Of a stretch of 39,297 bases of DNA, positions 5,295 to 16,631 are shown in pieces; positions within the stretch are counted from its first letter, which is position 1; each line of letters begins with the position of its first letter. A program made the translations under genes and the position numbers. The stretch comes from Saprospiraceae bacterium (lineage in GTDB: Bacteria > Bacteroidota > Bacteroidia > Chitinophagales > Saprospiraceae). A model generated the notes under the pieces. The model saw only the letters and a program-made list of their open reading frames with translations, did no database searches and had not been told where the DNA came from. The DNA is taken from assembly GCA_007121335.1 (NCBI GenBank), contig SKLY01000194.1, forward strand, positions 1-39,297, given 5' to 3'.

Positions 5295-7937
5295 TCACTC
5301 GTCAAAAAGACTACCCTGCTTGCCATCATTGACATCCAGGTCAACGGAATCACCCGGTTTTAGATTTTCAGACCCCGAATCATCGTCGTTCTTCTTTTCA
5401 TCTTTTGGCTCAGATCCCTCACTAATCATCTTGATCGAACTGATTTTGTCATCGTGCAACCTGTTGCCGAGTGCCTTCCATCCTTTCACATCAATGAAAT
5501 CTGCAAGTGCCACCTTGTCGACCTCTTTATTTTTACCCTTACCATGTGAAAAGGACACCAGAGGATTCGGAGCAAAACTCGCGAAGTACAATTTGCTGGA
5601 CCTGTGGTCGGAAATAAAGGAGAATTCCTGGTCCAGGGAGGAGGTTTCTATATTGAACCGCTTAACAAGGGTCCACTTTTTCTCCCCTTCGTAATAAACA
5701 GCACTGACAACCTGATTAGGCACGAATTTTTTCACTTCAATGAGCCGGTCCAGATCAAAACGGGTATTTTCATCTGGAGCAGTAACCAGGTAAGTTCCTG
5801 CTTTGTATAGAGCAATGATGTGATCACCGGTATCAAATTCACCGAGGAATTTACCCCTTTCATCCGTATTTATGCGACCGCTCACTTCGTCCATCCAGTA
5901 TTTGATTGCACCGAGAGTAGATTTGCCCACCTCCTTAAGCGAGACTTTTCTCACCGGGTATTTTGTCACAGTATTTCCCTTACTGCCACGACCTTTGATG
6001 CTCAGCTCTCCGAAATCAAATTCAAAGACTTTGTTGCGTGCCCTGCAGGCAGGACTCAGGTATATGGTCAGCACTTCAGCTTCTCCATTGGGATTTTCGC
6101 TGAGGTAGAGAACTTTCGAGCCCTTTTCGCCCGTTATCATTTGGTAATCCTTATCGCGCGTAATGGATTTCACATGAAAACGCTTGGCGTAAGTATTTCC
6201 GGTTTTTCCATCCCGGTAGAGCATGTTGTAGGTAGTGCGGTCGTCCCCTCTCTTCCATACATTGGCCAGCATAATATCCTTACCCACGAAGGACTTATCC
6301 TCAATTCTCGTCACGCGCATCTTCCCATCCCGCTTAAACACGATGATGTCATCAATATCGGAACAATCGCAGACGTATTCGTCTTTTTTAAGCCCGGAGC
6401 CGATAAATCCGTCTTTGTAGTTGACGTATAATTTGGCATTGTTGGCGACCACCTGAGTGGCTTCAATGTTCTCAAAACTGGTGATCTCGGTTTTCCGTTC
6501 TCGCTCCTTACCGTATTTTTTCAGTAAGTCTTTAAAGTAGGCAATGGTGTAATCAGTGAGATTTTCAATGTGGTGTTCAGTCTCGGCAATTTGGTCCTCC
6601 AGATCACTGATAAACTGATCCGCCTTAAATTCATTGTATTTAGAAATACGCCTGATCTTAATTTCCGTTAATTTATGTACATCCTCATCGGAAATATTGC
6701 GGTTCAGGATCAGCATCTTTTCTTCCGCGGGATTCGGGTTCTCTGGACATTTCACGTATTTGTACATGCCCTTCCTGACCACATCGATAACCTCCTCCCA
6801 GCTTTCGCACTCTTCGATGTCCCGGTAAATCCTCTGTGAGATGAATATTTTTTCCAGACTGGCGTGGAACCATCTGGCTTCAAGTTCCCCCAATTTTATT
6901 TCCAGTTCCCAACCCAGCAGGTGCCTGGTTCGCTCTGCATCCATTCTAAGGATCTCATCCACTCCAAGGAATTGGGGAACCCCATCTACAATAATGCAGG
7001 CATTGGGCGAGACAGAAACTTCGCAATTAGAAAAAGCATACAGCGCATCCATGGTAACCTCCGGAGAGACATTGGGGGCGAGTTCGATCAGTATTTCCAC
7101 ATCCTTCGCCGTGTTGTCGATGATGCGTTTTATCTTGATCAATCCCTTGTCCCCTGCTTTTACAATACTGTCGATGAGAGAAGTAGTGGTGGTGCCGTAT
7201 GGGATTTCCTTTATTGCAATGTGTTTTTTATCCACCTGTTCGATTCTGGCGCGCACCTTAATCCTGCCTCCTCGCTTTCCCTGGTTGTAATCACTTGCAT
7301 CCATCAAACCACCTGTCAGGAAATCCGGGAATATCTCAACTTTTTTGCCTTTGAGAACATCAAAACAGGCCGCTATCAGCTCCTTAAAATTATGTGGCAA
7401 GACTCGAGTTGAGAGACCCACTGCGATTCCTTCAGTTCCCATTGCAAGAAGTAGTGGGAATTTTGCGGGAAGAGCAACCGGTTCCTGATTCCTGCCATCG
7501 TAAGTCAATTGCCACTCAGTGGTGTCCTTGTTGAAGAGCACCTCCCTGGCAAAAGGCGTTAGCCGCGCTTCGATATACCTCGCGGCAGCAGCACTGTCTC
7601 CAGTCCGCATATCTCCCCAGTTTCCCTGGCAATCGATCAAAAGTTCTTTTTGTCCGAGTGTCACCAGTGCATCGCCAATGGCTGCATCACCGTGCGGGTG
7701 GTACTGCATACAGTGCCCGATGAGATTGGCAACTTTGTGGTACCTGCCATCGTCCTTTTGAAACATGCTGTGCAAAATCCTGCGCTGAACCGGTTTGAGA
7801 CCATCCCTGGCCTCGGGAACCGCCCTCTCTAAAATCACATAGCTGGCATAATCAATGAAATACTTTTTAAACATCCCCTTGAGCGAGCCACCCTCATTAA
7901 GGTCTATATCTTTATGCACGGCATTCTTGTCCGACAT
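5295..7937 (-). CDS. parC: DNA topoisomerase IV subunit A
   Basis: The cutting and rejoining subunit of topoisomerase IV, which decatenates daughter chromosomes. From the ATG at 7937 the protein has 880 residues. The breakage-reunion domain has RDGLKPVQRRILH (about 44-56), YHPHGDAAIGDA and the active-site Tyr121 in AAARYIEARLTPF. The C-terminal third carries GyrA-type propeller repeats, then an acidic tail (DEKKNDDDSGSENLKPGDS). At the quinolone-contact position equivalent to GyrA Ser83 there is Ala85, and the Asp87 equivalent is Asp89. The frame runs to a TTG at 7946, but ATG 7937 (MSDKNAV) is the natural start. No parE lies beside it. A perfect -7 box is about 80 nt upstream, and the gene is divergent from the sigma factor. 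GyrA is less likely because of the long Bacteroidota ParC-type tail and the HPHGDAAIGDA form. Confidence 0.93.
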   Translation of the reverse strand: MSDKNAVHKDIDLNEGGSLKGMFKKYFIDYASYVILERAVPEARDGLKPVQRRILHSMFQKDDGRYHKVANLIGHCMQYHPHGDAAIGDALVTLGQKELLIDCQGNWGDMRTGDSAAAARYIEARLTPFAREVLFNKDTTEWQLTYDGRNQEPVALPAKFPLLLAMGTEGIAVGLSTRVLPHNFKELIAACFDVLKGKKVEIFPDFLTGGLMDASDYNQGKRGGRIKVRARIEQVDKKHIAIKEIPYGTTTTSLIDSIVKAGDKGLIKIKRIIDNTAKDVEILIELAPNVSPEVTMDALYAFSNCEVSVSPNACIIVDGVPQFLGVDEILRMDAERTRHLLGWELEIKLGELEARWFHASLEKIFISQRIYRDIEECESWEEVIDVVRKGMYKYVKCPENPNPAEEKMLILNRNISDEDVHKLTEIKIRRISKYNEFKADQFISDLEDQIAETEHHIENLTDYTIAYFKDLLKKYGKERERKTEITSFENIEATQVVANNAKLYVNYKDGFIGSGLKKDEYVCDCSDIDDIIVFKRDGKMRVTRIEDKSFVGKDIMLANVWKRGDDRTTYNMLYRDGKTGNTYAKRFHVKSITRDKDYQMITGEKGSKVLYLSENPNGEAEVLTIYLSPACRARNKVFEFDFGELSIKGRGSKGNTVTKYPVRKVSLKEVGKSTLGAIKYWMDEVSGRINTDERGKFLGEFDTGDHIIALYKAGTYLVTAPDENTRFDLDRLIEVKKFVPNQVVSAVYYEGEKKWTLVKRFNIETSSLDQEFSFISDHRSSKLYFASFAPNPLVSFSHGKGKNKEVDKVALADFIDVKGWKALGNRLHDDKISSIKMISEGSEPKDEKKNDDDSGSENLKPGDSVDLDVNDGKQGSLFDE

Positions 7938-8015
7938 CAGTCTCAAATTTGATTAATGTTCAATAACCCCGGAAGCGGTCTGAATATTTTGCATCCAATC
8001 ACCGGTAATAGAAGA

Positions 8016-8023: not shown

Positions 8024-8252
8024 GTATATAAAATTTTATAATCTGTCATGCTATTGTGCCATATTACCTGAAGTTTAGGGAAGTATTCTTCTGTATGGAA
8101 TTGATTTCCGGACAAATATTGTAAGAAATTTGTGGCTACTTTCCCCTAATGAATTGAGAAATAGAACTTTTCAATAGAAATTAAGGACCCGGATCATTTT
8201 CACGATGACGAGAAAAAAGGAAGCAAATTCAGCCAATTATCCGTTTCATTAG

Positions 8253-8260
8253 TATCTTTA
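8253..8260 (+). promoter_or_regulatory. -7-like box (TATCTTTA) at the ECF sigma gene
   Basis: TATCTTTA matches seven of eight consensus positions and overlaps the first possible ATG (8260). If used, transcription starts near 8267 and the sigma protein must begin at the next in-frame ATG, 8287. Confidence 0.4.
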
Positions 8261-8286: not shown

Positions 8287-8844
8287 ATGGGCATTTCTAT
8301 TCAACTGGGACTGAGTGAAGAGGAGTTTATCACTGCCCTGATAAACCGTGAAAAGTGGGCACAAAAGGCAGTTTATGAAGAGATGTACTCCGATTTGTTG
8401 TTGGTTTGCCTCAGGTATGCCAGTAACAACCAGGATGCACTCGACATTCTCCACGATGGCTTCATCAAGGTATTCAGGAATATATCAAAGTACAAGGTTG
8501 GCACATCCTTTGAATCCTGGATGAGGAGGATAATGATAAATACTTCCATCGATTATTACCGAAGGGAAAAGCGAAGATGGACCGAGGATATTGAGAATGC
8601 ACACCATTTAAGTGGCCCATCAGATGGAGCCCTGGAGCAAATGGGTGAAAAGGAAATCCTTCAGGCCATTCAAAGCCTCAGTCCGGCTTACAGAATGGTA
8701 TTTAACCTCTATGTGATCGAGGGATATTCGCATCGTGAAATAGCAGATGTATTGAATATCAATGAGAGCACATCTCGCTCCAATCTGGTAAAAGCCAGGT
8801 CAAAATTGAGGAATATTGTAGAGTTGAAAAAAGATATGAAATAA
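8287..8844 (+). CDS. RNA polymerase ECF-type sigma-70 factor
   Basis: A 185-residue group 4 (ECF) sigma factor that would redirect RNA polymerase to a special promoter set. Region 2 covers about residues 25-95, with ALDILHDGFIKVFRNISKY for core binding and SFESWMRRIMINTSIDYYRR for -10 recognition. Region 4 covers about 125-178, with the helix-turn-helix YSHREIADVLNINESTSRSN. There is no C-terminal extension. The upstream ATG at 8260 would add nine residues. ATG 8287 is preferred because the -7-like box overlaps 8260 and the family normally starts close to LSEEEF. The TAA at 8842-8844 directly abuts the ATG of the next gene, which suggests translational coupling and a sigma/regulator pair. No separate FecR- or RseA-type anti-sigma gene is present. 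Confidence 0.9.
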   Translation: MGISIQLGLSEEEFITALINREKWAQKAVYEEMYSDLLLVCLRYASNNQDALDILHDGFIKVFRNISKYKVGTSFESWMRRIMINTSIDYYRREKRRWTEDIENAHHLSGPSDGALEQMGEKEILQAIQSLSPAYRMVFNLYVIEGYSHREIADVLNINESTSRSNLVKARSKLRNIVELKKDMK

Positions 8845-10332
8845 ATGGAGAATCGGGACTTTGACAAGTGGATCAGAGAATCTGTCGAAAAGATGGAAGG
8901 CCACAGCCATGTCCCCCCTCAAGATTGGGCAAGTTTTGAGGACAAATTGGTTGAAACTGAAATTGCAGATGAGCAATTTGACCAAATCATCAAAGAGAAA
9001 TTAACCAATCAGAAACCGGCATACAATCCGGCGCACTGGATGGAGTATTTGTACAAGTCCAGTCTGTTTAAATTGCTCAAGGTAGATTTTTTGTACAACA
9101 AAATTTCGGAAGCTTTTATACTCACGCTCGCTCTTGCCCTTATTCTGCCGGCCAACAACTGGCAACTCCTGCGAGATTTTGATCATACCTCAGCTACTGC
9201 TGTTCGCTATTTAGATGGGGATAATCCTGAGCCACAAAGTGATAGATTTGTGACGGTGACTATGTCTCAGGCGTCTAATGGGAAAAGCGACATCCGGTCT
9301 TCAACCGAATCATCCGTTAAAGCCGGTAACATTGCGTTTGAGAGAACCAGTAGCAATTTAGAATCACCGACTAATCTACAGCGGTCTGATGCGGTTGCTC
9401 TTCTGGAGGTGAGATTTATTGAGCAATTACACCATAGAAGTTGGGACTATTCCTTGGCTCAATCATTTAACACATCGAAAATGCCTGCCGGAGAAGTTCA
9501 GCCCTTCACTTTAGATAAACTCCCACCTCCTGTAATTCCTTTAGCCGCTATTCAACCATCACTTGCGGTGGAAGATAGAACTTTCGAAGATTTGCGTAGT
9601 CACCCAATCGGTGACAATAATTTTTCCAATAGAAGTGGAGAGGGACTCAATTGGTTGTTGAGCACTTTTCTGGTAGCTGATATCAACACTATCCATACCC
9701 CTTATGATGAGATTTATCAAAAAGCCGGTTACGAACAAACCAAATTTGGAATGGGAGGAGGTTTGGGAGTTGGTCTGATGCGAAATGGTTGGGCAATTGA
9801 ATTGGGTTTGGTTTACTCCATGAAACAATACAACCCCAGAGAAATCCTCGAGGTTTTTCGCATTGGAAACGATATGGCCAACGCGGTGAGCTTGAAGAGT
9901 ATCGAATTGAATACCCTGAGCATCCCCCTAACCCTCAGATACGATCTATCGACAAAGGGTCGGTGGATTCCCTATATGAAAATGGGTATTGGTCTAAATC
10001 TGGCCACGCATGCGAATTATCACCGCGAAGAGTACATCCTGTCCCTTTCGGCTCCCATTCCTTCTGACGCCAACCTCAATTATTCGCAAGAGGCCAAGTT
10101 GGATAAGAAAAGGTTTACAGATGGGTTGTTTGAGGGTGGAAAATTTAGCGAAAACAGCTACCTGAGTGCCAATGGAGGTCTGGGGGTAGATTTTAGATTA
10201 AGCCCGGATTGGAGAATTTTTGCCCAGGGAAGCTACCAGTATAACTTTTTAGAGCAAAAACTGGGGCCCAATAACGATCACATCAATACCATAACCCTGC
10301 AAATGGGCGTGAGGCATCAGATCCGACATTGA
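8845..10332 (+). CDS. Putative trans-envelope sigma regulator: N-terminal cytoplasmic region, one membrane helix, C-terminal outer-membrane beta-barrel
   Basis: A 495-residue protein coupled to the sigma gene. Residues 1-87 are charged and lack a signal peptide. They contain two similar units, VPPQDWASFEDKL (23-35) and YNPAHWMEYLYKS (60-72), sharing P-x-x-W. A hydrophobic segment (about 89-104, FILTLALALILPA) fits one inner-membrane helix. Residues 105-270 are Ser/Thr/Pro-rich and low in order, as for a periplasmic linker. Residues about 298-495 look like an outer-membrane beta-barrel of the PorT-like / OMP_b-brl type, with GMGGGLGVGLMRNGWAIELGL, SIPLTLRYDL, YMKMGIGLNLA and NGGLGVDFRLSPDWRIFAQG. 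The order suggests an anti-sigma-like protein that reads the outer membrane directly. That function is inferred from gene order and topology. No described anti-sigma domain is recognised with certainty. Confidence 0.72.
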   Translation: MENRDFDKWIRESVEKMEGHSHVPPQDWASFEDKLVETEIADEQFDQIIKEKLTNQKPAYNPAHWMEYLYKSSLFKLLKVDFLYNKISEAFILTLALALILPANNWQLLRDFDHTSATAVRYLDGDNPEPQSDRFVTVTMSQASNGKSDIRSSTESSVKAGNIAFERTSSNLESPTNLQRSDAVALLEVRFIEQLHHRSWDYSLAQSFNTSKMPAGEVQPFTLDKLPPPVIPLAAIQPSLAVEDRTFEDLRSHPIGDNNFSNRSGEGLNWLLSTFLVADINTIHTPYDEIYQKAGYEQTKFGMGGGLGVGLMRNGWAIELGLVYSMKQYNPREILEVFRIGNDMANAVSLKSIELNTLSIPLTLRYDLSTKGRWIPYMKMGIGLNLATHANYHREEYILSLSAPIPSDANLNYSQEAKLDKKRFTDGLFEGGKFSENSYLSANGGLGVDFRLSPDWRIFAQGSYQYNFLEQKLGPNNDHINTITLQMGVRHQIRH

Positions 10333-11508: not shown

Positions 11509-12573
11509 TTAGAAGTTGAAACCTACACTTATATTGTGCGTACCATTAAAGGGATTGGAATCCCTAAAAGCGTAGTCAATGACCAGTCCGGTGTTTTCAT
11601 CCTCACCCCAATTGAGCAAAAACGAGACACCTGCTGCAATACCGGTGTAAACACCTTTATCCTCAAGCGCAGACCCGGCACCCATTTCATACTTATAACC
11701 TCCTCTGATCATAATCATTTCTGCAAAAGAATATTCAATTCCTGCACCAAGATCATCTCTTGAGAACGAGTGTGCCGTAAAGTTGGCTACAGGCGTAATG
11801 CGATGTCGATCTCCAAAACCCAAAAGCAGGTCGTAACTCACTCCAATGTGAAGCAAGGAGGGAAGTTCATAAGTCGCAGAGCGCTGGTTGAATCTAAGCT
11901 CAAACCTAAAATCGTCTTCGGGGTTGGGGGCACGAAAACTAAGTCCCTCTCCCCTAAACTGCATAGGAGATCCCACATTCCTAAGCGCAATGCCAAACTT
12001 AAAGTTATCCTGAGGTCCGGTTACATATTGAATACCGGCGTCAAATGCTATACCAAAGGCTGAAACATCTGTGATAGACTGGTTAACCCCTCTGACAAGA
12101 AATCCAACTGAAATATTATTATCAAACATGTGAGAGTAACCCAGTCCAAGATTGAAGTAAGTAGGTGAGAAAGTCGCACCGGTACCTTCCGGTTGGTTGG
12201 TTGTCGTCACATCGAGATCACCGAAATCCACCGTCATAAGGGATATTCCAAGTGCTCCATGGTCCCCCATTTGGAGAGACAATCCCAGTGCATTCATGTT
12301 AATATCCGCAGGATGTAAATAGCTGGCGTGACCAAACATAGCCTGCGAGCCTGGAATACGTCCAATCCCAGCAGGATTAATTCTCATCGCCTCTACACCA
12401 CCAACCATGGAGGCAGTCATACTGTGAAGCCCGGCAGAACGAGCCCAGGGATTCATTAGCAATTCAGTTGCACCTGCCTCACCCTGTCGATCCGGATTAC
12501 CTGCAAACAAGGTGACTCCACCAAACATTAGAATGATAGAGGTATAAAATAAAGATTGTACAAGTTTTTTCAT
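11509..12573 (-). CDS. PorV/PorQ-family outer-membrane beta-barrel protein
   Basis: A 354-residue outer-membrane protein. The signal peptide is MKKLVQSLFYTSIILMFGG with cleavage near LFA-GNPD. The N-terminal part has LLMNPWARSAGLHSM and AMRINPAGIGRIPGSQ, the layout by which PorV/PorQ (UPF0164-like) proteins are recognised: a Gly/Ala-rich segment, then a conserved NPAG. Amphipathic strands follow and it ends in NISVGFNF with the C-terminal Phe of outer-membrane barrels. In T9SS, PorV collects cargo at the SprA translocon and shuttles it to the PorU sortase. This gene is 77 bp downstream of a giant T9SS-type cargo gene, so a dedicated shuttle is a plausible job, by inference. It is probably a paralogue rather than the core PorV. 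Confidence 0.8.
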   Translation of the reverse strand: MKKLVQSLFYTSIILMFGGVTLFAGNPDRQGEAGATELLMNPWARSAGLHSMTASMVGGVEAMRINPAGIGRIPGSQAMFGHASYLHPADINMNALGLSLQMGDHGALGISLMTVDFGDLDVTTTNQPEGTGATFSPTYFNLGLGYSHMFDNNISVGFLVRGVNQSITDVSAFGIAFDAGIQYVTGPQDNFKFGIALRNVGSPMQFRGEGLSFRAPNPEDDFRFELRFNQRSATYELPSLLHIGVSYDLLLGFGDRHRITPVANFTAHSFSRDDLGAGIEYSFAEMIMIRGGYKYEMGAGSALEDKGVYTGIAAGVSFLLNWGEDENTGLVIDYAFRDSNPFNGTHNISVGFNF

Positions 12574-12650: not shown

Positions 12651-15600
12651 TTACAAGCCGGACGGGTCAAATTGTCTGGCAACACCAAACCACTTGAGTA
12701 CCCTTTCACCCAATCCGGGTGCTTCGACGTGTATCAAATAAACCCCACTCGCAATGGGAACACCTCTGTGATTCCTCAAGTCCCAATCTAAACCGGAACT
12801 CGGAAGTCTCCCCTTGGTGGGAGGTTGGCTGTTCAGTACAGGATCACCTCCCCTGCTGACATTTCGCTCGTATCTTCTAATAAATTTACCGTCAAGGGTA
12901 TAAATCGTCACGGTAGCCCTGTCAGGCAGATTTGTGATTTTAACCCTGTTGTCAAACTGGGTCTCTTCGTATGCAGAGAAGGCGTAGTACGGATTTGGAA
13001 CGACTTTAATTTGATCCAATGCGTTATCAAACTCCTCTTCCAACAGGTTGTCGGCTTGCATTCCTTCAATTTCAAAGAAGTACCTATTGTAGGCCTTATC
13101 GCCACCTTCTTCGCGCTCACCAACCTCATAGGGTTTGGTTACCCTAAGTTGAACGATTGCATCATTTGGGATCAAACCCTCTTCATAAGACAGCAATCCG
13201 GACGCAAGGGGCATACCTGCCCAGGTTACTCTCTGTAATACCTGAGGCTTTTTAATAGCATTGGGCAGAGGACCTGCAAGTATGTCCCTCAATTCCTGGC
13301 AACCGTCATACTCCTGATTGGTAATGTAAACAAAATGCTGGCCACCCACTATCAAATCAGCAAAACCGGGCAAATTACCGATAGTAAAGTCAATAGATGG
13401 ATTCCAGATGCGATCATCACCTATCAGAAAGCTCGGGTCGAGATCCGATACAACTCCATTCGGGTTATCAGGGCTATAAATTGTGTTTTCTGCAAAAAAC
13501 AGGTTGAGTCTTGTACCGGTTTCCACATCAACGACGTAACCGGGGAACCACGCTAAACCGGGATCTGCATCGGGATCATTCATTGGGAGTCCATCGGGAC
13601 CTGCTTCAATGGAGGCTGCCGGTCTGTCAAGCAGATCAAACATAGAACGACCTCTCCAATTAAGTCCGGTTGCATCGTATTCGGGGCTGGCAGCTTCAAC
13701 CACCATAACGCGACTCCACTTACTTCTATCTGAAGTAAATACAATATCCACATTGTTAACTCTGCTGATTCCACCGGTTGCACCTACACATGCACCAACA
13801 TTTTGACTATTAACCCATGCGGCGGTTATCATTGGCAGGTTGCCAGGCCTGTAATCAAACATGCAGTAAGGGTAAAACCCGGACTCATTGTTATTAACAA
13901 AGGATCTATTCGGGTCCAATTCAGTATCATCTGAATCTGGACCTGTCTTTAGATAATCAAGAATATCAGGCGTACCATCCGGCGGAGAAACAGCATCGGG
14001 CACAAAGCCCAACCATTGAGCGCCAAATGGATCATCATAGACAATTTGGCCACCCAGGAAACCATTGTCGGGCACACCAAACGGATCCTGCCCCGGGAGT
14101 AGTTCCTGACCAATGGTAACTGAGAAACCAAATTTACCGACCAGGTTTTCATTCAGTATATCGATTGAAGACTCGGAGCGTGCCCTTTCGCCGGTACCCA
14201 GGTGTACAACTTCCCATCTTGCACCGGCTGCAAGCTCATCGGTGTCGGGTTCATCGTCAAAGAATCTCAATTCGTATTGGCCATCTACCACATCAAGTGG
14301 ATTGTAAATGGCAATATCAATTGGTCCGCCACCGGGAGCATATCGCAACTCTCCATCAAATGTCCCTTCAACAATAGACTCACGAATGCCCTCTTCCAAC
14401 TGAAGGAAGTTTCGACCTGTTCCACTACCCTCAAGTCTCGTAATCGGCACTCCATCACCGTAATCAGCATTCAGGTTTTTGTAAACCGTAGGTCTGGGAG
14501 TTACCGTATAGACCCGGACATTTCCACTACCTTCCAGGTATGTTTGCTCCTGGCCAACTCCCGTAGTGAAATCAAGGGAGTCGTAGTTATTAAATCCGTA
14601 GGCAACGGCAGCAAAATAGTACTTTTTGTGATTAATTAAATCCCGGTCGCCATCCGCAAATAAATCTTCAGTTACTCTAAAGCTATGCCGAATACCCTCA
14701 TTGCTTCCCCTCACCATTTGCTTTGGAACCAAAATCGATTGGCCGCTATTGGGGTCATCAACAGGCTCCCAATTGTAAAGCGTCGAAACCTCATTTCTCA
14801 CATCGGCCTGAAAAACCAATCTGGCTCTGGACGGGTCTTCAAAACTTTCGCGAATGGCTTCTACTGTTCCATCGCGCAATTGAAACACCTGGTAGCCTTC
14901 AAAAACATACATGGAATCCGGTTCACCATCGGGAATTCTAAGACCTTTTTCTTCGTACTGCAAAAATGCATTGTTGGAAGTCAGGGTGTCATTTGAAAGT
15001 GCAAAAATAATCTCCCTGTCCAACTCAATTGGAAACATATCCGGTGCATCAGGACCATCCGGAAAGTCAAAGCAATTGTCAAACAGTGCCTGTGCTGTTC
15101 TATCGGCATTGAAAAGACGCGTAAGATCAGGACATGGATGTGGGATGTCTGGAACCCAAACAACCCCAATTATCAACTCATTGATCGCACCGGGAATGAG
15201 GCGGAAGGGACCGGAAGCCTGAAGTGTCCTTCTATCACCCTGCTGAAGCCCGGCAGTACACATTGACCATCCCATTTCATCATCCGGTGGATCAGGGAAT
15301 GCGTATTTTATTGGAGTACCACCAGTCCCTCTATAACCAGAACCCCCGGCGGTAAATGGCCTACCATCCCTCCACGAGCCGGTTAGGTAATTGTAAAACT
15401 CAGGTCCTGATTGAGGATCTGTCATTGCAGAAGGACCATCAAAACCACCTGGGTTGTTATAATAAACGAAGGAAGACAAGCCAATTTCTTCCCCAAACTC
15501 ATCAAGTGGTCCGCGGAAATAATCAGCACCAAGTGCGGGGATATTTCTGCAATAGGTTGGGATTGGTCCACCTCCTGATGGGCACTCGCAAGAATTGGGT

Positions 15601-16631
15601 ACACTTCCATCTATGGCATCTTCATTGTACACATACATCAAATCAAGCGCTGTATCAGATCCGATAAAATCATCAAAGGGACACCCTAAATCAGGGTCAA
15701 TCCACATCGCAAAGAACATACTGTCAATTACAACTCTTGAGCGGTTGATCAATTTATGCCTGTAGAAGGTCATGTTGTTGATTTCATCCTGGGTGGAGTA
15801 TGCAAATGCCTGTACCTGGACTTCCATACGAACAGGATCCGTATTTGTTCTGGTTTTGGTACCACCTGCATCGTTATAAATCCAGAAGAACATCTCGTCC
15901 GGGTCACGGGTATCGAAGCCCGGTTCACAACCTCTAATGTCAATTCTCGGATAATCTCCCTGACTAGGATCGTAAACAAAATTACCTTCATAATCGAAGT
16001 AATTTCCAAGTCCCTGATCATTGAATGGGAGTTCAAAATCATAGCGCTCATTGAAAAATGGATTTCCTAGAGCCGGCCAGTATTTTATATTATCCGGAAT
16101 CAAGTCCGGAGGAATATTCTCGCCCTGTTGTTCTATAAAAATCTCAATATTGCGCTTATGTTCATCAATATCTTCTCTGGTAACTTTAAAAAATCGGTCC
16201 CAATCCCGGCACCTCTCGGCACTGGTAGTACCATCTTCCGGTCTAAGAGGACCGGGCCACCAGTCATTATTCTGGGAGCTACGGTAACTTTGAGCTGCGA
16301 CTTTAAGGTTGCCCTCTTCATCGATACCTCCTACCCATACTGCACCCGCAAAGATGGAATTCACCTCAGGCTGTGGAGGGAGGACATTGGGTACCACATA
16401 GCGAGCCTCAGACAGGTTCCACCACATATCACCACCCGTCATCAACCGGGCTCTTACATTGTTTATGTTGAGGTCCACCTGAGCGGTCGCCTGTGCACAG
16501 TCGCCGCGGAGTTCAGCAGCTTGTTGCATTTGCCTCTGTCGCTCGCCTTCCAGTTCCGGTGGTATATAAGCCTCAAGGGATGTTATCGATCCCAAACTCA
16601 ATACAACTAGGGTCAATAATATTTTCTTCAT
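12651..16631 (-). CDS. Giant exported protein with T9SS-type C-terminal domain (1326 aa)
   Basis: Not a protein of known function. It has a signal peptide (MKKILLTLVVLSLGSITSLEA). Close behind comes a striking segment, NNVRARLMTGGDMWWNLSEA (about 58-76), followed by SIFAGAVWVGGIDEEGNLKV and DWWPGPL. The long middle is rich in Asp, Gly, Pro and aromatics, has several Cys, and contains YNWEPVDDP and YYFAAVAYGFNNYD, suggesting beta-rich extracellular modules. No catalytic motif is recognised. The last about 120 residues (VVPNPYYAF, ATVTIYTLDGKFIRRY, WDLRNHRGVPIASGVYLIHV) match the type A T9SS sorting domain, but with an extra tail ARQFDPSGL. It sits 28 bp after the TonB-dependent receptor gene and before the PorV-like gene, so a surface or secreted protein made with its own outer-membrane partners is the best inference. 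Confidence 0.8.
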   Translation of the reverse strand: MKKILLTLVVLSLGSITSLEAYIPPELEGERQRQMQQAAELRGDCAQATAQVDLNINNVRARLMTGGDMWWNLSEARYVVPNVLPPQPEVNSIFAGAVWVGGIDEEGNLKVAAQSYRSSQNNDWWPGPLRPEDGTTSAERCRDWDRFFKVTREDIDEHKRNIEIFIEQQGENIPPDLIPDNIKYWPALGNPFFNERYDFELPFNDQGLGNYFDYEGNFVYDPSQGDYPRIDIRGCEPGFDTRDPDEMFFWIYNDAGGTKTRTNTDPVRMEVQVQAFAYSTQDEINNMTFYRHKLINRSRVVIDSMFFAMWIDPDLGCPFDDFIGSDTALDLMYVYNEDAIDGSVPNSCECPSGGGPIPTYCRNIPALGADYFRGPLDEFGEEIGLSSFVYYNNPGGFDGPSAMTDPQSGPEFYNYLTGSWRDGRPFTAGGSGYRGTGGTPIKYAFPDPPDDEMGWSMCTAGLQQGDRRTLQASGPFRLIPGAINELIIGVVWVPDIPHPCPDLTRLFNADRTAQALFDNCFDFPDGPDAPDMFPIELDREIIFALSNDTLTSNNAFLQYEEKGLRIPDGEPDSMYVFEGYQVFQLRDGTVEAIRESFEDPSRARLVFQADVRNEVSTLYNWEPVDDPNSGQSILVPKQMVRGSNEGIRHSFRVTEDLFADGDRDLINHKKYYFAAVAYGFNNYDSLDFTTGVGQEQTYLEGSGNVRVYTVTPRPTVYKNLNADYGDGVPITRLEGSGTGRNFLQLEEGIRESIVEGTFDGELRYAPGGGPIDIAIYNPLDVVDGQYELRFFDDEPDTDELAAGARWEVVHLGTGERARSESSIDILNENLVGKFGFSVTIGQELLPGQDPFGVPDNGFLGGQIVYDDPFGAQWLGFVPDAVSPPDGTPDILDYLKTGPDSDDTELDPNRSFVNNNESGFYPYCMFDYRPGNLPMITAAWVNSQNVGACVGATGGISRVNNVDIVFTSDRSKWSRVMVVEAASPEYDATGLNWRGRSMFDLLDRPAASIEAGPDGLPMNDPDADPGLAWFPGYVVDVETGTRLNLFFAENTIYSPDNPNGVVSDLDPSFLIGDDRIWNPSIDFTIGNLPGFADLIVGGQHFVYITNQEYDGCQELRDILAGPLPNAIKKPQVLQRVTWAGMPLASGLLSYEEGLIPNDAIVQLRVTKPYEVGEREEGGDKAYNRYFFEIEGMQADNLLEEEFDNALDQIKVVPNPYYAFSAYEETQFDNRVKITNLPDRATVTIYTLDGKFIRRYERNVSRGGDPVLNSQPPTKGRLPSSGLDWDLRNHRGVPIASGVYLIHVEAPGLGERVLKWFGVARQFDPSGL

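Follow-up and report, generated by a model that had tools for sequence, protein, structure and literature searches.

A putative envelope-spanning anti-sigma factor with tandem cytoplasmic units, encoded next to an ECF sigma factor gene in a Saprospiraceae bacterium

Introduction

In FecR-type cell-surface signalling, an event at the outer membrane is linked to an ECF sigma factor through separate anti-sigma and outer-membrane receptor proteins. Systems that combine both roles in one chain are also known; the Dma proteins were reportedly named in a 2024 PNAS paper, and the paper on EcfO is said to date from 2013. In the available excerpts of the Dma study, the Dma family of B. thetaiotaomicron is described as a one-protein anti-sigma factor reaching from the cytoplasm to the outer membrane, composed of an anti-sigma domain, a transmembrane helix, a disordered tether and a C-terminal barrel, with an ECF21 sigma factor encoded next to it (PMC13088901). 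In Dma3, according to the same excerpts, the sigma domain lies within the same polypeptide (PMC13088901). A one-protein anti-sigma factor spanning cytoplasm to outer membrane is likewise described for P. vulgatus (PMC9308784, PMC13114119), where Reo is said to span all five compartments (PMC13114119). Loss of the anti-sigma factor in systems of this layout activates the regulon of the sigma factor or a sigma-dependent phenotype, as far as the excerpts of two reports go (PMC9308784, PMC13088901).

Here, a gene pair at positions 8287–10332 (forward strand) of contig SKLY01000194.1 from a Saprospiraceae bacterium is analyzed; the whole stretch of DNA considered, 39,297 nucleotides in length, is referred to as the window. 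It is highly probable that this locus encodes a sigma factor with an anti-sigma partner of the Dma/Reo kind, working as the envelope-spanning sensor proposed below. The initial annotation of this DNA treated a one-protein envelope sensor as a departure from the usual anti-sigma types. That design had already been published, for P. vulgatus and for Dma, in the excerpts available (PMC9308784, PMC13114119, PMC13088901), and the element for which no earlier description was found in these excerpts is the tandem copying of the putative sigma-gripping part.

Results

The gene pair and its surroundings

The first gene (8287–8844, forward strand) encodes an ECF sigma factor of 185 amino acids. Its product matches Pfam Sigma70_r2 (56.8 bits) and r4_2 (61 bits), both above cut-off, and the NCBIfam model sigma70-ECF (TIGR02937; 99.9 bits, cut-off 42.9); NCBIfam Sig70_bacteroi1 scores 89.2 bits, under its cut-off of 126.4. 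The longest open frame begins at 8260 and would give 194 amino acids. The start at 8287, chosen in the initial annotation, is likelier because more distant homologous sigma factors begin at the matching point and because 8246 is the last position of a conserved promoter-like site.

The stop codon of the sigma gene (TAA, 8842–8844) directly abuts the ATG at 8845 with a gap of 0 and in the same frame (junction 8842–8847, forward strand, compared with the junctions of homologues), just as first annotated. The second frame (8845–10332) encodes 495 residues. The description of the two proteins as fused in translation was wrong as worded, since a stop abuts a start and the genes are two; translational coupling of them is possible. 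A single-chain sigma-barrel fusion, as in Dma3, was considered and is ruled out by the TAA codon and by the separate open frames found in 42 of 42 homologue pairs. Dma3, described in the available excerpts as a single chain with the sigma factor inside it, therefore provides a known precedent for the fusion idea, though not in the window pair, where the sigma factor has a gene of its own.

The two genes are the only ones in their orientation locally. Upstream, on the opposite strand, lies a topoisomerase IV/gyrase A gene (5295–7946); downstream, also on the opposite strand, are a HIT-like gene, whose match is under the curated cut-off, and a GreA gene.

Components related to type IX secretion are encoded in the window as well. 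The product of 11509–12573 is a PorV/PorQ-family protein (134.8 bits, cut-off 90), and beside this gene a protein of 1326 residues (12651–16631) gave no NCBIfam match at 1e-8. The product of 1363–2856 carries a sorting tail for type IX secretion (TIGR04183; 46.7 bits, cut-off 23). A link of the pair to its PorV/PorQ neighbour was considered and is not supported: among 14 stretches compared, that gene neighbours the pair in L032, L033 and L004 only, all from near relatives, and some of the other stretches end close to the pair.

Conservation of the pairing

Homologues of the 495-residue protein were sought in 80 related genomes, own genome included, at single-sequence sensitivity. They were found in 44 genomes, comprising 8/8 of the genus, 36/41 from other genera of the family and 0/31 from other families of the order. 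In all 42 assessable genomes the homologue gene is immediately preceded by an ECF sigma gene on its own strand; at the remaining two loci (L007 and L013) the gene is truncated by the contig start. The distance between the two genes varies from −68 to +48 nucleotides, the most negative values being sensitive to which start codon is assumed.

A family-profile search of the phylum matched 88 of 296 genomes, with many partial matches that may include unrelated barrels. Among the 29 best-scoring loci besides that of the window, the sigma gene is directly upstream in 28 (two of the 29, L098 and L101, are genes already present in the 42-genome count). For the 24 of these loci that come from other families of the phylum, the figure is 23; both figures are counts over the best matches and not unbiased rates. 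The exception (L126) lacks the N-terminal motif described below, too. Sigma pairing is thus near-universal among the homologues examined, and what the initial annotation had offered as an inference for Bacteroidota is confirmed by the homologue check (42/42 and 23/24).

Divergent orientation of the pair and the topoisomerase gene recurs in L032 and L033 (loci 92% and 80% identical, respectively) and in 4 of 11 longer stretches (L208, L209, L210 and L212). Retention of this arrangement across loci points to vertical inheritance. In the 11 longer stretches, conservation is much stronger in the sigma factors (55–75% identity over the aligned parts) than in their partners (22–69%).

Anatomy of the 495-residue protein

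Residues 1–86 are polar and, judged by eye and by hydropathy, carry no hydrophobic start resembling a signal peptide. A single putative transmembrane segment follows at residues 87–103 (9103–9153, forward strand; hydropathy 2.11 over 17 residues), the most hydrophobic 17-mer in the first 200 residues. K86 and E89, flanking and within this helix, are at least 90% conserved in the 42-row family alignment. The 20 residues before the helix contain 4 K/R and 2 D/E, and the 20 residues after it 2 and 2, so the charge distribution favours an N-in orientation only mildly.

The presumed periplasmic tether comprises residues 104–267 (9154–9645). It is the least conserved region of the protein (mean pairwise column identity 0.12 versus 0.25–0.32 elsewhere), and its minimum length is kept: across 42 aligned family proteins, the window protein included, it measures 118–223 residues with a median of 167. 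An extended chain covers about 0.34 nm per residue, so even the shortest of these tethers could reach about 40 nm, which exceeds the width of the periplasm.

The remainder of the protein, residues ~268–495 (9646–10329), is presumed to form an outer-membrane beta-barrel, with a match of residues 293–489 to PF13505 (OMP_b-brl) that scores 32.4 bits (cut-off 28.7). Among the 42 homologues, PF13568 (OMP_b-brl_2) is matched by 28 and PF13505 by 18 at E ≤ 0.01; some homologues have no match to a given barrel model at this threshold. A search of PDB sequences with the family profile returned a single match, to a designed protein (E 0.12), which was taken as chance. AlphaFold2 gave a mean pLDDT of 26.8 for all 495 residues and of 36.3 for the sigma factor plus N-terminus read through the TAA codon, each with only 3 closely related alignment rows; values this low carry no information on the barrel or on a complex.

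Could this C-terminal region be the periplasmic, beta-rich sensor of an inner-membrane anti-sigma factor that never reaches the outer membrane? The barrel match exceeds its Pfam cut-off by just 3.7 bits, the matching models are generic, and AlphaFold2 with 3 rows produced no fold, all of which would suit such a protein. Recurrence of the two barrel models in 28/42 and 18/42 homologues (E ≤ 0.01) argues for the barrel instead, and a purely periplasmic sensor would have no need of the tether of 118 residues or more that is kept in 42/42 rows, which makes this possibility very unlikely.

A barrel in the outer membrane joined by the tether to a helix in the inner membrane is therefore the reading retained here. 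The inner-membrane-plus-barrel anatomy proposed in the initial annotation is borne out in its main lines, namely the cytoplasmic-looking N-terminus without a signal peptide, the long linker (at least 118 residues in 42/42 rows) and the C-terminal barrel pattern, for which the above-cut-off match and its recurrence in homologues speak. The one hydrophobic segment also stands, its position shifting from about 89–104 to 87–103.

A tandem unit in the cytoplasmic part

An unusual feature, absent from the initial annotation, is a tandem repeat in the cytoplasmic part. It consists of copies of a unit of ~29 residues with the consensus FDQIIREKLENLEAPYDPSHWDLLEEKLD, two of which are present in the window protein. 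Unit 1 corresponds to residues 6–35 (8860–8949, forward strand; repeat HMM 27.2 bits) and the membrane-proximal unit 2 to residues 45–72 (8977–9060; 36.9 bits), which contains W65; both are candidate anti-sigma units.

In 41 family proteins (a near-duplicate, L003, was omitted), copies above 5 bits number 0 in 1 protein (L039), 1 in 4, 2 in 22, 3 in 13 and 4 in 1; only 7 of 820 composition-shuffled N-termini had such a match. A later-found member (L099) has five units, so that 0–5 units are detected within the family. For less circularity, an HMM of membrane-proximal units only was scanned on the region upstream of them. With this HMM, 35 of 36 upstream regions score at least 5 bits versus 11 of 1800 composition shuffles, and the region upstream of unit 2 in the window protein scores 16.2 bits.

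From one unit to the next the spacing is 32–47 residues (n = 51). In the 40 proteins that have any unit, 8–19 residues separate the end of the last one from the hydrophobic segment. The membrane-proximal tryptophan (W65) is invariant in 42/42 rows. The dipeptide 'HW' occurs in 23/40 proximal units versus 7/51 upstream units, and the copies have therefore diverged.

Because nearly all family members share one membrane-proximal copy, the repeated unit is most simply seen as the sigma-gripping element, as far as the sequences indicate. The extra copies may bind further sigma factors, clasp the two sigma domains or serve as a spacer. A refinement compatible with the main reading is that each unit binds its own sigma factor, copy number setting how many are held per tether. 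The homology of the units (35/36 upstream regions at 5 bits or more versus 11/1800 shuffles) would allow this, and the N-termini of only 43–56 residues in 20/23 homologues from outside the family suggest that one unit may suffice. The units are not interchangeable, to judge from the 'HW' counts above, only the proximal W is invariant, and one binding unit with accessory units fits equally well; one sigma factor per unit is thus a tentative idea, on the unlikely side. It is rather doubtful that the variable-copy array (0–5 units) acts as a multivalent sigma holder in which the number of units tunes how much sigma factor a stretched tether releases, for an outer-membrane response that is graded and not on/off.

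Searches of the Pfam and NCBIfam anti-sigma families gave no match up to E = 1, a threshold that a very diverged domain could escape. In the literature searched, restricted to excerpts of open-licence PMC papers, no mention of tandem anti-sigma units was found.

Homologues outside the family and paralogous pairs

Of the 23 out-of-family homologues that have a sigma gene, 20 carry an N-terminus of 43–56 residues before the hydrophobic segment; the exceptions are L112, with a probably mis-called start, L120 and L121. In these 23 proteins the repeat HMM finds a unit above 5 bits in 16. With a residue pattern, 13 proteins show one unit and L121 shows two; the remaining 9 show none, and all of these have a unit above 5 bits by the repeat HMM. 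The unit thus appears to be common to the out-of-family homologues, in a diverged form. The N-termini encoded by L120 (1123–2232) and L121 (1252–2190), of 93 and 112 residues, appear to have room for two units, which suggests that duplication may have occurred more than once.

The genome of the window contains 16 sigma-70-family matches above cut-off; two of them fall in frames as long as 298 and 312 residues and may be primary-type sigma factors. It also encodes at least three further pairs of a sigma factor and a transmembrane, barrel-like protein on contigs C191, C66 and C281 (L082 3040–5166, L083 1475–3566 and L089 3246–5338). Their best barrel scores are under cut-off (E 4.6e-5, 1.2e-5 and 0.01). 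In these pairs the N-terminus before the hydrophobic segment has 43–48 residues, too short for two units, and the repeat model found no unit in any of the three. The window protein is therefore the duplicated one of the four.

Another arrangement is seen at L079 (G000:C168, 2044–4554), where a sigma gene is followed by genes for a protein of 329 residues, which has one hydrophobic segment, and for a separate barrel protein of 299 residues. The last has a PF13568 match and a signal-peptide-like start. This locus is possibly a split version of the same sigma/transmembrane/barrel system.

A promoter-like site upstream of the sigma gene

Ahead of the sigma gene lies a candidate ECF promoter recognized by motif conservation, GAAGC (8220–8224), 17 nucleotides and CGTTT (8242–8246), on the forward strand. 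The motif GAAGC-N17-CGTTT is common to the upstream regions of same-genus sigma genes and has a single exact match in its own genome (3.14 Mb), the one ahead of the sigma gene. The exact site stands directly before the sigma gene in five of the seven assessable same-genus genomes (G000, G001, G003, G004 and G006); near-matches with one and two changes occupy the same place in G002 and G007, and in G005 the site is cut by the contig. G000, G002 and G004 are close relatives, as are G001 and G006, so that these genomes amount to about four independent lineages, three with the exact site. The single genomic site before the sigma gene suggests autoregulation, and the sigma factor is probably autoregulated from positions 8220–8246, which would act as its promoter.

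A wider regulon was not found with this motif in the eight same-genus genomes. The exact motif has 26 matches there versus 26 for a reversed control pattern; with one mismatch, the genome of the window gives 151 versus 213 and G004 145 versus 216. Of the 26 exact places, 20 fall within open frames and five directly precede this sigma gene; the last one (L149) is not in a frame and has no start in its vicinity. A place shared by L133, L146 and L147 was considered as a common promoter and rejected, being conserved coding sequence at an open-frame start (MKHLFTLNRF...). In 33 of the 42 upstream regions, searched with a looser motif, nothing consistent emerged beyond the genus, and 311 of 3300 shuffles matched as well.

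Discussion

Proposed mechanism

The 495-residue protein would be inserted N-in across the inner membrane, its flexible tether crossing the periplasm and its C-terminal barrel folded into the outer membrane. In the cytoplasm, the two tandem units, predicted to be helix-loop-helix-like, would hold the ECF sigma factor inactive, while the barrel could relay the condition of the outer membrane along the tether. The trigger would be some perturbation of the barrel or the tether, such as outer-membrane stress or failed barrel assembly. The molecule would then be loosened or cut, with release by pulling, misassembly or proteolysis, and the freed sigma factor could transcribe at least its own operon from the 8220–8246 site.

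Alternatively, the barrel protein could be a positive co-factor or a target of the sigma factor, co-transcribed with it for autoregulation and not an inhibitor. The anti-sigma function assigned to it is drawn from analogy, and in E. coli an N-terminal stretch of FecR is essential for ECF activity, according to the excerpt consulted (PMC7406223). The systems with the same layout point the other way. In P. vulgatus, transposon insertions in the anti-sigma gene turn on genes of the sigma regulon (PMC9308784), and the phenotype of a dma2 deletion requires das2 (PMC13088901), as given in the excerpts of both papers. A co-factor or target role is hence highly improbable, and an anti-sigma role, by analogy with these systems, is likely for the 495-residue protein.

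Comparison with known systems

The likeness to Dma lies in an N-terminal anti-sigma part, one transmembrane helix, a long tether, a C-terminal barrel and a neighbouring ECF sigma gene; it is drawn from the excerpted description of Dma, by layout rather than by sequence. The Dma sigma factor is described as ECF21, and that of the window is known as ECF by general Pfam and NCBIfam models. The cytoplasmic part of the window protein differs in consisting of two tandem units, and its gene pair is flanked by the topoisomerase and HIT-like genes.

The EcfO/Reo system of Bacteroides fragilis and Phocaeicola vulgatus also combines an ECF sigma gene with a following gene for an envelope-spanning barrel anti-sigma factor (PMC9308784, PMC13114119). 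It belongs to other bacteria, the likeness is by description only, and tandem units are absent from the excerpted descriptions of Reo.

Class I anti-sigma factors (RseA, RskA, ChrR and RsiW) share a cytoplasmic anti-sigma part, often ahead of a transmembrane helix. In the excerpt consulted, their fold is a three-helix bundle with a fourth helix (PMC7406223), whereas the unit of the window protein is a short W-containing motif with no Pfam or NCBIfam anti-sigma match. FecR-type systems link an outer-membrane event to an ECF sigma factor in the same way, and the window system differs in placing both roles in one chain.

Significance

The presence of this pair suggests that the Dma/Reo layout, described in gut Bacteroides, is a widespread outer-membrane-to-transcription wiring in Bacteroidota, Saprospirales included. 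The tandem unit provides a short sequence signature for an otherwise unnamed anti-sigma part. With natural variants carrying from 1 to 5 detectable copies, the questions of which unit binds the sigma factor and what effect copy number has become testable.
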